From assembly GCF_014642075.1 (NCBI RefSeq), contig NZ_BMIK01000013.1, positions 1 to 64,000 on the forward strand: 64,000 nt of DNA, in the 5' to 3' direction. Each line of letters opens with the position of its first letter. The first letter of the stretch is position 1. The DNA comes from Parapedobacter defluvii (GTDB taxonomy: Bacteria > Bacteroidota > Bacteroidia > Sphingobacteriales > Sphingobacteriaceae). The translations under genes were made by a program, and so were the position numbers. Positions 9,606-50,489 of the stretch are shown here, piece after piece. The notes under the pieces were generated by a model. That model ran no database searches. It was not told the DNA's origin and was given only the letters and a program-made list of their open reading frames with translations.

Positions 9606-9652
9606 ATCTGCTGCTAAATTAGCAAATATCGTGCTGTTTTTTCTGCAAACGT

Positions 9653-10405
9653 TTATTTATCCACTTGCGGAAACGGTGGAAGCCGCCGTGCAGCCGGATT
9701 TTGCCGGTATTGTGCCAGTGAGGAGCGGATGTAAAACGCCAAATTATAGTCATTGGCACTCAGGACAAAATAATAAGAAGGCCTGTATTGGCGCATGAAA
9801 TCCGCCAATGTCGCACCGGTCAAACCCGTCACCCCGCTCACCAGCTCAGGCGTAAATCGATAATCAATCACTGATTCCCGGTAATCCTGCTCGATGATTT
9901 CCTGTAGCCGGCGAGAATTTTTGCCCTCACGGCTTATCAGTTTATACAATGCATCAATGCTCACTCCCGCTCCGGTCGGGCCCACAGAAAAGATAGATCC
10001 TGCGTTTCCTTTGCTATAAGCCGTGCCATACTCCTTTTTGTTTTCTTCAAGCCGCTCTTCCGGGCTACGCCGGGCAATGACAGAGACTTCATCCAGCCAA
10101 ATGGTAGACCGCTCCATATTAAACAGCACAACGTTTTTGGTAGACACAACGAGCGTATCGGGGTAGTAACCTTTCGTGGCTGCAATCAGGATGTCTCCCG
10201 GAGATGCCTGAATAGAGAACTCGCCGCGCGTGTTATTATATCCCCCTTCGTCATTCGCCGTATTATAGACATATACCTGCGAGATTCGCTGCTTGGTATG
10301 TTTGTCAAACACGATACCCTGTATGGTGGTCTGGGCCCATGCATCACCACAGAAATACAATCCCCCAAAAAGCAATCCGACAAGAAAACGACTTACATAA
10401 TTCAC
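9653..10405 (-). CDS. carboxypeptidase-like regulatory domain protein (CarboxypepD_reg-like)
   Basis: A secreted protein with signal peptide SRFLVGLLFGGLYFCGDAWA, followed by a CarboxypepD_reg-like beta-sandwich (QTTIQGIVFDKHTKQRISQV, GGYNNTRGEFSIQASPGD, ILIAATKGYYPDTLVV), the usual N-terminal module of Bacteroidota outer-membrane proteins. Here it is not joined to a TonB receptor; about 150 further residues have no recognised domain. I place the start at GTG 10405, directly before the signal peptide; the open frame extends upstream to 10504 but that would overlap the next gene and hide the signal. The function is unknown, probably periplasmic or outer-membrane. Confidence 0.75.
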   Translation of the reverse strand: MNYVSRFLVGLLFGGLYFCGDAWAQTTIQGIVFDKHTKQRISQVYVYNTANDEGGYNNTRGEFSIQASPGDILIAATKGYYPDTLVVSTKNVVLFNMERSTIWLDEVSVIARRSPEERLEENKKEYGTAYSKGNAGSIFSVGPTGAGVSIDALYKLISREGKNSRRLQEIIEQDYRESVIDYRFTPELVSGVTGLTGATLADFMRQYRPSYYFVLSANDYNLAFYIRSSLAQYRQNPAARRLPPFPQVDK

Positions 10406-17589: not shown

Positions 17590-17605
17590 GGGTTTAGAGA
17601 GGCGT

Positions 17606-18101
17606 GTTGCAATGCACGACGGAACTGTAACGCTCACTCCGTTCACGCCACTAGGTTCCTTTCGTGCATTTGCAACACTGGAAGGCGGGGTGGGGACGGA
17701 ACTGTAACGCTCACTCCGTTCACGCCACTAGGTTCCTTTCGTGCATTTGCAACACTGGAAGGCGGGGTGGAGACGGAACTGTAACGCTCACTCCGTTCAC
17801 GCCACTAGGTTCCTTTCGTGCATTTGCAACACTGGAAAGGCGGGGTAGATACGGAACTGTAACGCTCACTCCGTTCACGCCACTAGGTTCCTTTCGTGCA
17901 TTTGCAACACTGGAAGGCGGGGTAGATACGGAACTGTAACGCTCACTCCGTTCACGCCACTAGGTTCCTTTCGTGCATTTGCAACACGGAAAGGCGGGGT
18001 GGGGACGGAACTGTAACGCTCACTCCGTTCACGCCACTAGGTTCCTTTCGTGCATTTGCAACACGGAGAGGGAGTTGGGGTTCCTTTCGTGCATTTGCAA
18101 C
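17606..18101. repeat. tandem array of six 77-bp repeats plus a partial copy
   Basis: The stretch GGAACTGTAACGCTCAC recurs at 17621, 17698, 17775, 17853, 17930 and 18007, giving periods of 77, 77, 78, 77 and 77 bp. Each unit has a core (TGTAACGCTCACTCCGTTCA then CGCCACTA), an arm GGTTCCTTTCGTGCATTTGC, and a variable G-rich spacer (GGAAGGCGGGGTGGGGAC, with GTAGATAC and GTGGAGAC variants). The first unit is preceded by GTTGCAATGCACGAC, almost the reverse complement of the arm, so the founding element was a long inverted repeat. A truncated arm copy ends the array near 18101. It fills the space between truA and the PTPS gene. One frame is open through it, but only because the period leaves few stops. 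Confidence 0.95.
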
Positions 18102-47271: not shown

Positions 47272-47445
47272 TCATCCCCGCTTTTGCAGCCACCGCTGCA
47301 GCAACCAGCTTACCACAAAGCTCACCACCGCGCCGATGGCAGCCAACACTACGGTCTTGGCAATGTCATACACACCAAGGAAGGCCAAGGCACTGAGCAG
47401 TGTACCACTGCCCGTACCGATGCCGATTTGTTGGCTATTTTTCAT
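47272..47445 (-). CDS. 57-residue one-helix membrane protein (holin-like)
   Basis: A short protein coded ATG 47445 to TGA 47272: MKNSQQIGIGTGSGTLLSAL, then AFLGVYDIAKTVVLAAIGAV and VSFVVSWLLQRWLQKRG. One or two helices with Gly at regular steps and a basic end. It overlaps the previous gene by 11 bp. Small proteins like this in phage lysis cassettes are holins; the likeness is only structural. Seen in other Sphingobacteriaceae beside DUF5675 proteins, as I recall. Confidence 0.65.
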   Translation of the reverse strand: MKNSQQIGIGTGSGTLLSALAFLGVYDIAKTVVLAAIGAVVSFVVSWLLQRWLQKRG

Positions 47446-47662
47446 CGGATTTGCCCTCCTCCTTTTTTGAAGTACCTTCCAGCGCTTCGGCCAGGGTTAG
47501 CGCAAGCGCTACGTATTTGGCCACAGCCACTACCCGGGGTGGTAATTTGAGGGGCGAAGCGATGATTAATTGGCTGGCCACGGCAAGCCCTTCTTTGATC
47601 CGATCGTATAAGGCCGGTTTTCCCGCTACGGGTAGTCCGACCGTATTTTCTTGCTGTTTCAT
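47435..47662 (-). CDS. 75-residue hypothetical protein
   Basis: MKQQENTVGLPVAGKPALYD, a helical middle (IKEGLAVASQLIIASPLKLP and RVVAVAKYVALALTLAEALE) and an acidic-basic tail EGTSKKEEGKSDEK. The middle is fairly hydrophobic and may be amphipathic. No family is recognised. It overlaps the holin-like gene by 11 bp (SDEK stop) and lies next to the DUF5675 gene, with the palindromic repeat element between. Confidence 0.6.
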   Translation of the reverse strand: MKQQENTVGLPVAGKPALYDRIKEGLAVASQLIIASPLKLPPRVVAVAKYVALALTLAEALEGTSKKEEGKSDEK

Positions 47663-47704
47663 TTGTTCGATTTTCGTAATAGATTTATTTAAAGATATTT
47701 ATAG

Positions 47705-47778
47705 AACTTAGTAAGCCCAACGAAACTGTAACGCTCGCTACGCTCACGCCACTAGGTTTCTTATGGGCTTACTAAGTT
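47705..47778. repeat. palindromic repeat element, solitary copy
   Basis: A perfect 15-bp inverted repeat, AACTTAGTAAGCCCA (47705-47719) and TGGGCTTACTAAGTT (47764-47778), encloses a core CTGTAACGCTCGCTACGCTC then ACGCCACTAGG. The core is nearly the same as that of the 77-bp array at 17.6-18.1 kb, while the arms are unrelated in sequence to the arms there. Confidence 0.85.
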
Positions 47779-47873
47779 GCCTGGGGGAGCAATAAATCCC
47801 AGTTCCAGGGTGGATCACTGAATTTAAAACTGCACCTTCCCCCTCGGGTTTTTATGCCCTTTGCAAACACGGC

Positions 47874-48371
47874 CTAGGATGTGGAAGCGAAGCGCCCCGG
47901 ATCCCGTCGTGGAGCAAAGGGCTGAAACCCATTCTCCACCACCACCCTATCATTCCCTTTTTCAATCTGTTCCACCAGGAGTGGGTACACATAGCGGTAT
48001 GCCGCCGCCGAGTGCATCACCTGATAATCACCATCCAGCCGCTGCCAATACGAACCGGTGAGCGGGCAGCCCGCGGTCTGCGTATGGTAATTGCCAATGT
48101 GGATGAATACCAGCCGGTAATTGGGTATTTCGGTTATTTCAATCATTCCCCGGTGCATATGCGGATACTTAACCCCATAGCGGGCGTTCATGCCCGCACC
48201 GTGATTGAGCGAGAGCCCATACTCCCCTTCGGGAATGCAGGTGAGGCCCTGAACCTTCTCTACACGGATGCTGTCTTCCAGCAGGTAGCAGGCGAAGAGC
48301 CTGTTGATATAGAGGTGGCTGAGGGTACTGTTCTTTCCCTGCGCCACGCGGGTGATTGTTATTCTATCCAT
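47874..48371 (-). CDS. DUF5675 family protein
   Basis: A 165-residue soluble protein. Its 'NSTLSHLYINRLFACYLLED' start, CIPEGEYGLSLNHGAGMNAR, MIEITEIPNYRLVFIHIGNY and TAGCPLTGSYWQRLDG (with HIGNYHTQTAGCP) are the family marks. The Cys and His suggest an enzyme site, and the fold has been compared with endopeptidase-like cell-wall enzymes, but the function is unproven. It sits in a cassette with DUF6266 proteins and small membrane proteins. Confidence 0.8.
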   Translation of the reverse strand: MDRITITRVAQGKNSTLSHLYINRLFACYLLEDSIRVEKVQGLTCIPEGEYGLSLNHGAGMNARYGVKYPHMHRGMIEITEIPNYRLVFIHIGNYHTQTAGCPLTGSYWQRLDGDYQVMHSAAAYRYVYPLLVEQIEKGNDRVVVENGFQPFAPRRDPGRFASTS

Positions 48372-48380
48372 TTTTAATTC

Positions 48381-49055
48381 TCAGTTGTCGGTTTCAAAAC
48401 CGGAAGTCATCACAAGCTCAGCATCCACCAACGTTCCGAGGAACACGCTATCGGAGGCCGATCGGCGTATGCGATCCATTAGGAAACCGTAGCAGTGCAC
48501 CGTACCGTTCAGCATCTCCGCTGCCACCTGCATATCCAGTTGCCCATCTCCCCTGCAGGCCGTGCCCTCGCTCAACACCAGGCGCTGATGGGTCTGGTTG
48601 TACACCAGCAGATAAGCAGGCACATTATTATCGATAAGCATGCTGTCGACGGTCATCCAGCTAAGCGTGAATACCCCTTCGCCGAAGGCAAGCTCCGGAT
48701 AACGCATCGGCGGCAATGGCCCGCAGCTAACCAATACCCGTTCGGCACTGACATACAGGTCGGGGTAATCGCCGGCAATCGCATCCTGGAGCACCTGCCG
48801 GGTTGCCCAGTTGGGGCCTGACAGTTTCTTCCGGTTGCCCGGCTTGAACGTATCGGCCAGCACGGGCACGAGCGGTGCAAGGAACTGCGTGGCCAGTTTC
48901 ATCCGCAGCCGCTGTGCCTGCTGCGCGGGACTGGGTGGGGTGGTGCGCGGCTTGGGTGCCGAGCGCACATAGGATACGCCGTTGCGTGTGTAGTAGACGA
49001 GGCCTCCCACCTTGCCGTGCGGGGTACCTCCTGTTAGAATAGCCATATTGCTCAT
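48381..49055 (-). CDS. DUF6266 family protein (copy 1)
   Basis: A 224-residue protein beginning MSNMAILTGGTPHGKVGGLV and YYTRNGVSYVRSAPKPRTTP, followed by an all-beta region with SPAQQAQRLRMKLATQFLAP. The N-terminal 'GKVGGLVYY..NG..Y.RS.P' is the DUF6266 sign. No signal peptide. It is paralogous to the next gene, with a shared start (GKVGxV, PPxxAQxxQRLR) and beta-sandwich tail. The function is not known; the fold is suspected to be structural. Confidence 0.85.
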   Translation of the reverse strand: MSNMAILTGGTPHGKVGGLVYYTRNGVSYVRSAPKPRTTPPSPAQQAQRLRMKLATQFLAPLVPVLADTFKPGNRKKLSGPNWATRQVLQDAIAGDYPDLYVSAERVLVSCGPLPPMRYPELAFGEGVFTLSWMTVDSMLIDNNVPAYLLVYNQTHQRLVLSEGTACRGDGQLDMQVAAEMLNGTVHCYGFLMDRIRRSASDSVFLGTLVDAELVMTSGFETDN

Positions 49056-49110
49056 GAATAAGAGAAGTAAGGGGGGCCATGCCCCCTTACCGGTGATACC
49101 ATTGATCTGC

Positions 49111-49752
49111 CTATTGGAAGGTAACTTCCCCTAAGTAGACCGTTTTTGAAACCTTCCTGCCATCGTGGCTGGCGAAGAACATCCACGCGTGGCCGGTTTG
49201 CCCCACAAAGGGCGCCGGCACGTCCACCACCGCCTCGCCATCTTCCCGCGTGGCGGGCGTGTCGGTGGTGATGAACAGCTGCCGCTCCACGTTGTGCACC
49301 ACGATGTAGGCCACATCGTTGCTGGCACCCCCGAACTGGTTGGGCGTAGGGTCCCAGGTAAGGGTGACCGATCCCTCTGCCACTTCCAGCGAACTGGTGA
49401 GCGGGATGAACAGGCCGCCGTCACTGAGCGTGACGGCCGGATAGTCCAGCTCAAAATCCGGCGCTGCACCGATAACCGCCTGCTCGATGTTGCGCTTCAC
49501 CGCCATGCTGAACTGCGCTGCCGTGAGCCGCCGGATGTGGCGGAAGCCCACCGAGAGGATGCCCTGCAGGGGCGACAGAAATTTGGTGACCAGCGCAAAG
49601 CGGAGCCGCTGGGCCACCTGTGCTTCGGTGGGTGGCACCGTACTCTTTTTCGCCAGGCCACGCAGGTAGTGGATGCCGCGCCAGCTTGCGCCGATCACGC
49701 TGCCCACTTTTCCGGAAAAGGTGCCGTTGGCACCGTTAATGAATTTTGCCAT
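49111..49752 (-). CDS. DUF6266 family protein (copy 2)
   Basis: A 213-residue paralogue: MAKFINGANGTFSGKVGSVI, GASWRGIHYLRGLAKKSTVP, then EAQVAQRLRFALVTKFLSPL. It shares the N-terminal GKVGxVxGxxxxGxxYxR pattern with copy 1 and the beta-sandwich tail (SVTLTWDPTPNQFGG). The pair lies in tandem 55 bp apart. Tandem DUF6266 genes are common in Pedobacter-like genomes. No function is known. Confidence 0.85.
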   Translation of the reverse strand: MAKFINGANGTFSGKVGSVIGASWRGIHYLRGLAKKSTVPPTEAQVAQRLRFALVTKFLSPLQGILSVGFRHIRRLTAAQFSMAVKRNIEQAVIGAAPDFELDYPAVTLSDGGLFIPLTSSLEVAEGSVTLTWDPTPNQFGGASNDVAYIVVHNVERQLFITTDTPATREDGEAVVDVPAPFVGQTGHAWMFFASHDGRKVSKTVYLGEVTFQ

Positions 49753-50156
49753 TGTTTTTAATTTTTTAAATTATTACTTCAATTTATACTCCTGCCAGTG
49801 TTTCGATGTACCGGTACGATGACTGACGGAGGCAAACATAGTTCACTGTTTTACAGCCTCATAGGTGTGTCACCCCGTTGTCACCGCTTTCGGACGATGT
49901 TGTCACCAACCTATGGCTGGAGTGACAGGAATGTCACCGGGGTAAACACCGGAATACGGGCATAAACGTGCGTAGCGTGGGCCGGCCACCCCTGGCCGAA
50001 AGGCGCCGTATCAGGGAGTAGTCTGCTGGCTGTTTCAGTGCGGTCTCCTTGCGATATCAGTGCGGCGAACCGCCAGCGGAACGCCAGCTCACCGCAGGCA
50101 TATGGCTACCCCATGCGCGGCGGTTAGGGAGCCGTCCGGCAGCGGGCGCATGCAGC
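49753..50156. other. 404-bp intergenic region with TGTCACC cluster
   Basis: No gene is seen between the DUF6266 and HTH genes. Four TGTCACC copies (49868, 49879, 49901, 49932) and one inverted form TGACA (49923-49927) lie in 71 bp, the first three inside an inverted repeat CATAGGT (49860-49866)/ACCTATG (49909-49915). The rest is G+C-rich. The cluster could be a binding site array for the HTH protein, or an origin-like iteron group. Confidence 0.5.
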
Positions 50157-50489
50157 CTATGGCCTTTTGCCCCATTTCCAGAAATAGCAGTCGCTGAGGT
50201 CCTCCTCGCGGTATCGGATCCGGTTATCGGCGTTGTACACAAACCGGAGTTTGCCGCTGTTGCGGTAGCGTGTTACCGTGCGCGGGTCCACCAATAAGAA
50301 ATCTGCCGCTTCCTTGCGGTTGTACAGGGTGTCGGGTTCCGGTTCGGCTGGTTCAGCCGCTTCATTACTGCCCGGCAGGTTAAACGCCATCACGCCGGCA
50401 AGGAGTTGTCTATTGATTTCGATTAAGTGGTCTTGTTGGCTGATCAACTGCTGTTGCTGGCTGATCAGTACTTTCAGGTAGCTTTTCAT
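50157..50489 (-). CDS. helix-turn-helix protein (excisionase/HTH_17 type)
   Basis: A 110-residue protein. The N-terminus (MKSYLKVLISQQQQLISQQD) is a Gln-rich coiled coil, probably for pairing; the C-terminal HTH_17-like domain reads YNRKEAADFLLVDPRTVTRY then RNSGKLRFVYNADNRIRYRE. It is the MerR/excisionase type that bends DNA in mobile elements. It is the first gene of the cassette with DUF6266 and DUF5675 and may control it through the TGTCACC cluster. Confidence 0.85.
   Translation of the reverse strand: MKSYLKVLISQQQQLISQQDHLIEINRQLLAGVMAFNLPGSNEAAEPAEPEPDTLYNRKEAADFLLVDPRTVTRYRNSGKLRFVYNADNRIRYREEDLSDCYFWKWGKRP

Follow-up and report, generated by a model that had tools for sequence, protein, structure and literature searches.

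Intergenic hairpin repeats with a conserved core and variable complementary arms in Parapedobacter and a few related genomes

Results

The hairpin at 47.7 kb and its neighbours

The window, a 64,000-nucleotide stretch at the start of a Parapedobacter defluvii contig, contains near 47.7 kb a hairpin element of type A, with a small ORF on one side and a sister hairpin of type B on the other (Table 1). These belong to a cassette spanning 47435-50489, comprising the 75-aa ORF, A, B, a DUF5675 gene and DUF6266 genes, which recurs at several places in the genome and in other Parapedobacter (L116, L117, L118, L127 and L128). Within the window's own genome, four cassette copies of the element lie directly upstream of the same small ORF. 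Type B shares loop words and the tip with A, and often adjoins it in the opposite orientation. Both types are also found together in genome G052 (L148, L150, L151 and L160), where at L150 longer outer inverted repeats (GGATTTCGCTTTTAA/TTAAAAGCGAAATCC) enclose A and B in an arrangement resembling a composite MITE.

Table 1. Features of the window related to the hairpin family
Feature	Position	Strand	Basis or remark
Empty site (approximate); occupied in two relatives by an insertion that carries an element, unoccupied in the window	9630..9680	.	
First array unit, sole unit with both arms	17602..17683	-	model match, 82.7 bits
Five further units, core and right arm only, period ~77 bp	17695..18049	-	
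Last unit, truncated, right arm only	18080..18101	-	by eye
Small ORF, 75 aa, no Pfam match	47435..47662	-	adjoins A in several paralogous cassettes
A-type hairpin element, arm to arm	47705..47778	-	covariance-model match 47703-47783 minus, 98.3 bits
3' arm on structured strand	47705..47719	-	complementarity to 47764-47778
Conserved core NAAG-NAAC-CTA-GTGGCGT-GA-GC-GNA-GC-GA-GCGTTAC-A-GTTN-CGT	47720..47763	-	aligned copies, covariation
Apex GCGTAGC with a GNA triloop on a closing C-G pair; covarying outer pair	47737..47743	-	
5' arm on structured (minus) strand	47764..47778	-	100% complementary to 47705-47719
B-type sister hairpin (GGGTTTTTATGCCCTTTGC ... GCAAAGGGCTGAAACCC, apex AGCGAAGCG)	47846..47930	+	outer coordinates by eye
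DUF5675 protein	47874..48371	-	final codons overlap B element

The arms of the A element are 15 nt long and perfectly complementary across the 44 nt between them, as originally predicted from the window alone. The prediction had also recognised a conserved core, correctly, but had given it 20 nt, whereas the conserved part covers about 44 nt. Relative to shuffled sequences, the folding of the element reached z -8.35 on the minus strand and z -5.43 on the plus strand. Read inwards on the minus strand, the arms are followed by an internal loop (NAA/GT), a stem (NAAC/GTTN, the pair at N being A-T, G-C or C-G) and a bulge (CTA/A); within these come a seven-pair stem rich in G.T, tandem G.A, a pair that is G-C, A-T or C-G, a C-G pair and the GNA loop, the tip of the family on this strand being GCGNAGC. 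In three copies of A (L111:4429-4562, L111:6222-6356 and L112:4789-4922) the tip holds about 53 extra nt, the insert being the same in all three.

A covariance model was built from 23 aligned copies, in 20 of which the bulge was CTA and in none of which it was GTA. Changes on both sides were found in 15 of 29 pairs, amounting to 79 such cells against 28.6 in shuffles, and the covariation score was 0.378, compared with 0.157 for shuffled and at most 0.113 for slid alignments. The outer pair of the apex (alignment columns 41-47) was itself variable, occurring as G-C in 16 copies, A-U in four and C-G in three. This covariation demonstrates a repeat family with a conserved fold.

The array at 17.6-18.0 kb

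A 19-nt core of the 47.7-kb element recurs with three mismatches in six units of an array at 17.6-18.0 kb, so that the window has seven core matches where shuffles predict 0.02, in agreement with the proposal that the two loci share a core. Pairing of the array's arms, also proposed, holds for the first unit only, with one base missing from its left arm (GTTGCAATGCACGA where the complement would be GTTGCAAATGCACGA), and fails for the other five, which have a core and a right arm alone. The array, whose subfamily has TGCACG as an arm, may have arisen when a unit of core and right arm was duplicated in tandem. Cores are also arrayed in tandem in another species (L108:10088-10359), with a period of about 69 bp and, again, few full arm pairs.

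Pairing and divergence of the arms

Complementarity was listed copy by copy, as had been suggested. In the 78 full copies that remained after leaving out 35 of 113 rows with gaps or duplicates, arms paired with their own partners at 10.0 of 12 positions, versus 6.3 of 12 with the arms of other copies. Arm identity was nevertheless correlated with core identity in these 78 copies (r = 0.47), and pairs of copies with a core identity of at least 0.9 had a mean arm identity of 0.80, with a minimum of 0.17. Hence the arms are inherited with the core, yet diverge faster. Some arms characterise subfamilies (TTAGNAAGCCCA, TTTGGATGCGC and TGTTTCCNG...TTTTTGG), and within each of eight orthologous pairs (seven A, one B) they are recognisably alike. 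The outermost arm positions are the most variable, in type A alone and with the G052 composite excepted, and remoter copies share the tip and AACCTAG...CAGTT wholly or partly.

These observations qualify two earlier claims. The arms at 47.7 kb do differ from those of the array, but are not without relatives, each set resembling the arms of copies elsewhere; and conservation of the arms is mainly, but not only, in their pairing, given the sharing within subfamilies and the correlation with the core. A third claim, that the core inserts and then copies flanking DNA, was rejected: the longest match of the arms was 5.88 with their own flanks and 5.74 with the flanks of foreign copies (p = 0.23; 97 copies, 16 of 113 rows being left out), making them no closer to the former.

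A narrow and patchy distribution

The genome of the window has 13 occurrences of the core pattern, which is present in eight of 301 genomes of the same taxonomic family, the named genomes with exact core matches being Parapedobacter (P. pyrenivorans, P. indicus and P. koreensis). At E <= 0.5 the covariance model returned 20 matches for the window's own genome, and 117 across nine of 12 chosen genomes, the 12 comprising nine of the genus and three others previously known to have the core. The predicted repeat family with a conserved core is real. Three genomes of the genus (G003, G057 and G087) had no matches to the model, and six of its nine genomes carry the element. Under stricter filters the model matched nine of the 301 family genomes, and only the window's own genome in a sample of 395 from the phylum. 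Hence the family is narrow and patchy in its distribution. Placement is nearly all intergenic, with five of 113 matches inside a crudely called ORF of more than 150 aa. Carriage by phages or plasmids was rejected, as the viral contigs searched contained no exact core matches and the plasmids searched no matches. The model also matched weakly at L185:2273-2338 and L186:2311-2376, which seem to represent another hairpin family: their tip (GAGCGNAGCGA) is related, and their arms are long and almost perfect.

Empty sites, nesting and inversion

Copies of the element are dispersed and differ in presence between related genomes, with empty sites, nesting and one clean inversion of the core. In the window, the truA/PTPS gap that holds the array separates two fixed motifs by 793 bp, whereas the distance is 218-320 bp in G003, G028, G045, G068 and G078; two further genomes, G087 and G057, give no information here, having no truA motif upstream in the stretch examined. 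The comparison with empty sites that had been recommended proved instructive, in that those of the five relatives contained no model matches and, by eye, no such arms. The arms therefore arrive together with the element, and insertion into a ready-made palindrome was rejected for these sites. In G093 the gap contains two copies and a PDDEXK_2 gene.

Near window positions 9630-9680, two relatives (L143 and L110) have an insertion that carries A and is bounded by a duplication of about 9 bp (CTATTTCTC). At L109, A lies inside the apex of B with GCG on either side, and the same locus also has an intact B. Putative target duplications were confined to that one composite site and this one nested type. 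The nested A copies at L109:8972 and L109:3737 have the same flanks and opposite core orientations. Between the orthologous loci L121 and L146, the core is inverted between unchanged arms that are identical over about 19 nt each. Orientation also differs between L107:4521 and L109:3737, which may be separate insertions; in all, orientation differs in two of the eight orthologous pairs, and the difference is clean in one. No recent transposition was seen; the copies compared between orthologous loci are shared and of old date.

Movement by a DDE transposase acting on terminal inverted repeats, as in a classical MITE family, would fit both the outer inverted repeats of the G052 composites and the duplication at the L143/L110 insertion, a site that is empty in the window. 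It is nonetheless improbable, as the arms vary between copies and are least conserved on the outside, unlike transposase-bound ends, and as no parent element was found.

Selection on one strand, as RNA or DNA

On the structured strand, G.T outnumbered A.C by 250 to 10 in the inner stem and by 64 to 22 in the outer stems; four duplicate rows of 113 were dropped, and, with related copies being non-independent, the counts do not amount to a formal test. Such an excess implies selection of one strand as a single strand, beyond that of a double-stranded palindrome. The suggestion that an RNA fold is under selection is thus upheld for a fold of one strand, which may form as RNA or as single-stranded DNA. 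No rule of gene direction emerged from the 108 matches classified (32 same, 22 opposite, 25 convergent and 29 divergent, after dropping five edge matches of 113). A role as a terminator was rejected, partly by eye, there being neither a T-run nor an orientation rule. Searches of Rfam at the gathering score returned only tRNAs in the window and nothing other than tRNAs at ten loci, further matches being at chance level, and membership of a known structured RNA family was rejected accordingly.

One rival explanation is a structured RNA element: transcription of the copies would yield a hairpin that functions within mRNA, through stability, processing or protein binding, with recombination spreading it. 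Strong covariation, G.U pairs on one strand and the four cassette copies upstream of the same ORF all speak for such an element. It is still unlikely, since neither coding orientation nor side of the gene is preferred, Rfam yielded nothing besides tRNAs, and the core is inverted at an orthologous site with its arms retained.

After six of 75 regions with both orientations had been dropped, 46 of the remaining 69 had their structured strand on the G-rich strand (p = 0.008). In a split made once this overall bias was known, the two strands coincided in 28 of 42 regions of types A and C minus paralogous cassettes (p = 0.044), and in six of 13 of type D. The bias is confounded with the coding strand, since 45 of 69 (p = 0.015) is reached with the coding majority by itself, and balancing for the coding strand leaves 38 of 61 (p = 0.07). 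As an exploratory result, the strand bias lends slight support to single-stranded DNA on the template of the lagging strand.

Some REP/BIME sequences bind gyrase or IHF, and the DNA hairpin could likewise be a chromosomal protein-binding site that spread passively, any mobility being old. Intergenic placing, a conserved tip, the retention of orthologous copies and the mild strand bias suit this role. Patchiness within the genus, at six of nine genomes, does not, and nesting at precise points together with empty sites calls for insertion events, making this reading distinctly unlikely.

Candidate mobilising enzymes

A REP-associated tyrosine transposase had been suggested as the mover, but a RAYT/Y1 transposase gene (PF01797) was found in none of the nine carriers, the single match being in the non-carrier G087, and the candidate was rejected. 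Reverse transcriptases were not found in five of the nine carriers (G000, G045, G068, G093 and G171); a retro-mobile element was rejected because the enzyme is not in every carrier. At L113:4546-5475, a PDDEXK_2 (Rpn-type) gene lies in the truA/PTPS gap between two oppositely oriented A copies. Its protein has matches in 11 of 12 genomes, G003 and G087, both non-carriers, among them, and of the 30 loci checked among 44 matches the original alone has A copies. The nuclease was hence rejected as a mover and regarded as a coincidental neighbour. A search of the open-access literature found no account of this hairpin family.

Discussion

On balance, these repeats are probably short intergenic hairpin elements of a REP-like kind, mobile but non-autonomous, found in Parapedobacter and a small number of other genomes within its family. 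The element would be, or have been, mobile as a hairpin, with some enzyme recognising its structured strand, probably in the form of single-stranded DNA. Recognition may be seated in the core, with its CTA bulge, tandem G.A and GCGNAGC tip, whereas the arms would need only to pair and hence could drift, no fixed sequence being required. Template switching between the arms during replication, combined with selection for folding, could keep them complementary and sometimes flip the core. In yeast, template switching is described as homogenising arms and inverting spacers (PMC8604942), and it is also described as able to maintain hairpins (PMC8794818). Against a mobile REP-like family stand the lack of a mobilising enzyme among the Y1, reverse transcriptase and Rpn genes checked in carriers; the absence of visible recent transposition, with a single unambiguous inversion and few duplications; and a strand bias confounded with the coding strand.

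A more specific version, and a doubtful one, is a new kind of mobile single-strand hairpin, in which a non-RAYT enzyme recognises the tandem G.A and GCGNAGC tip on the lagging-strand template and inserts copies exactly into the tips of sisters, the stems being renewed by fold-back copying. If true, this would be an element that keeps its tip and changes its stem.

The nearest known kind is the REP. REP/BIME sequences are described as short imperfect intergenic palindromes in many copies, with G.T pairs, inverted pairs and subfamilies that have alternative complementary stem residues (Di Nocera 2013, PMC3733652), and in these respects the GTAG- or CGTC-tagged REPs and REPIN/RAYT systems resemble the Parapedobacter family. 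That source also describes some REP dimers inside longer palindromes and CGTC-type REPs as a class with no known transposase (PMC3733652). The Parapedobacter element differs in being longer (~75-80 bp), in conserving its tip rather than its foot, in having CTA(G) instead of a GTAG or CGTC tag, in its tandem G.A and GNA triloop, and in being carried by genomes without RAYT.

The neisserial dRS3/NIME repeats have conserved inverted ends, whereas the arms in Parapedobacter vary by subfamily. The mosaic intergenic repeats described in Neisseria (PMC3733652) are otherwise similar, as interleaved mosaics of several short repeats between genes. Template switching in quasipalindromes offers a parallel in arm homogenisation and spacer inversion (PMC8604942, PMC8794818). 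It is, however, a mutation process rather than an element family, and leaves spread unexplained. With tip, stem pairing and orientation varying separately among more than 100 natural hairpins, it would become testable whether compensatory stem changes arise by stepwise selection or by template switching in one step, and whether bacteria have a non-RAYT activity that mobilises hairpins. The ends of IS200/IS605 and the substrates of TnpA(REP) are recognised as bulged single-strand hairpins; such a form is likely recognised here too, with the side of the lagging-strand template weakly suggested, yet none of the nine carriers shares the Y1 transposase of those systems. Integron attC sites have conserved outer core sites and a variable centre, and the Parapedobacter family shows the reverse pattern, with its centre conserved and its ends variable.
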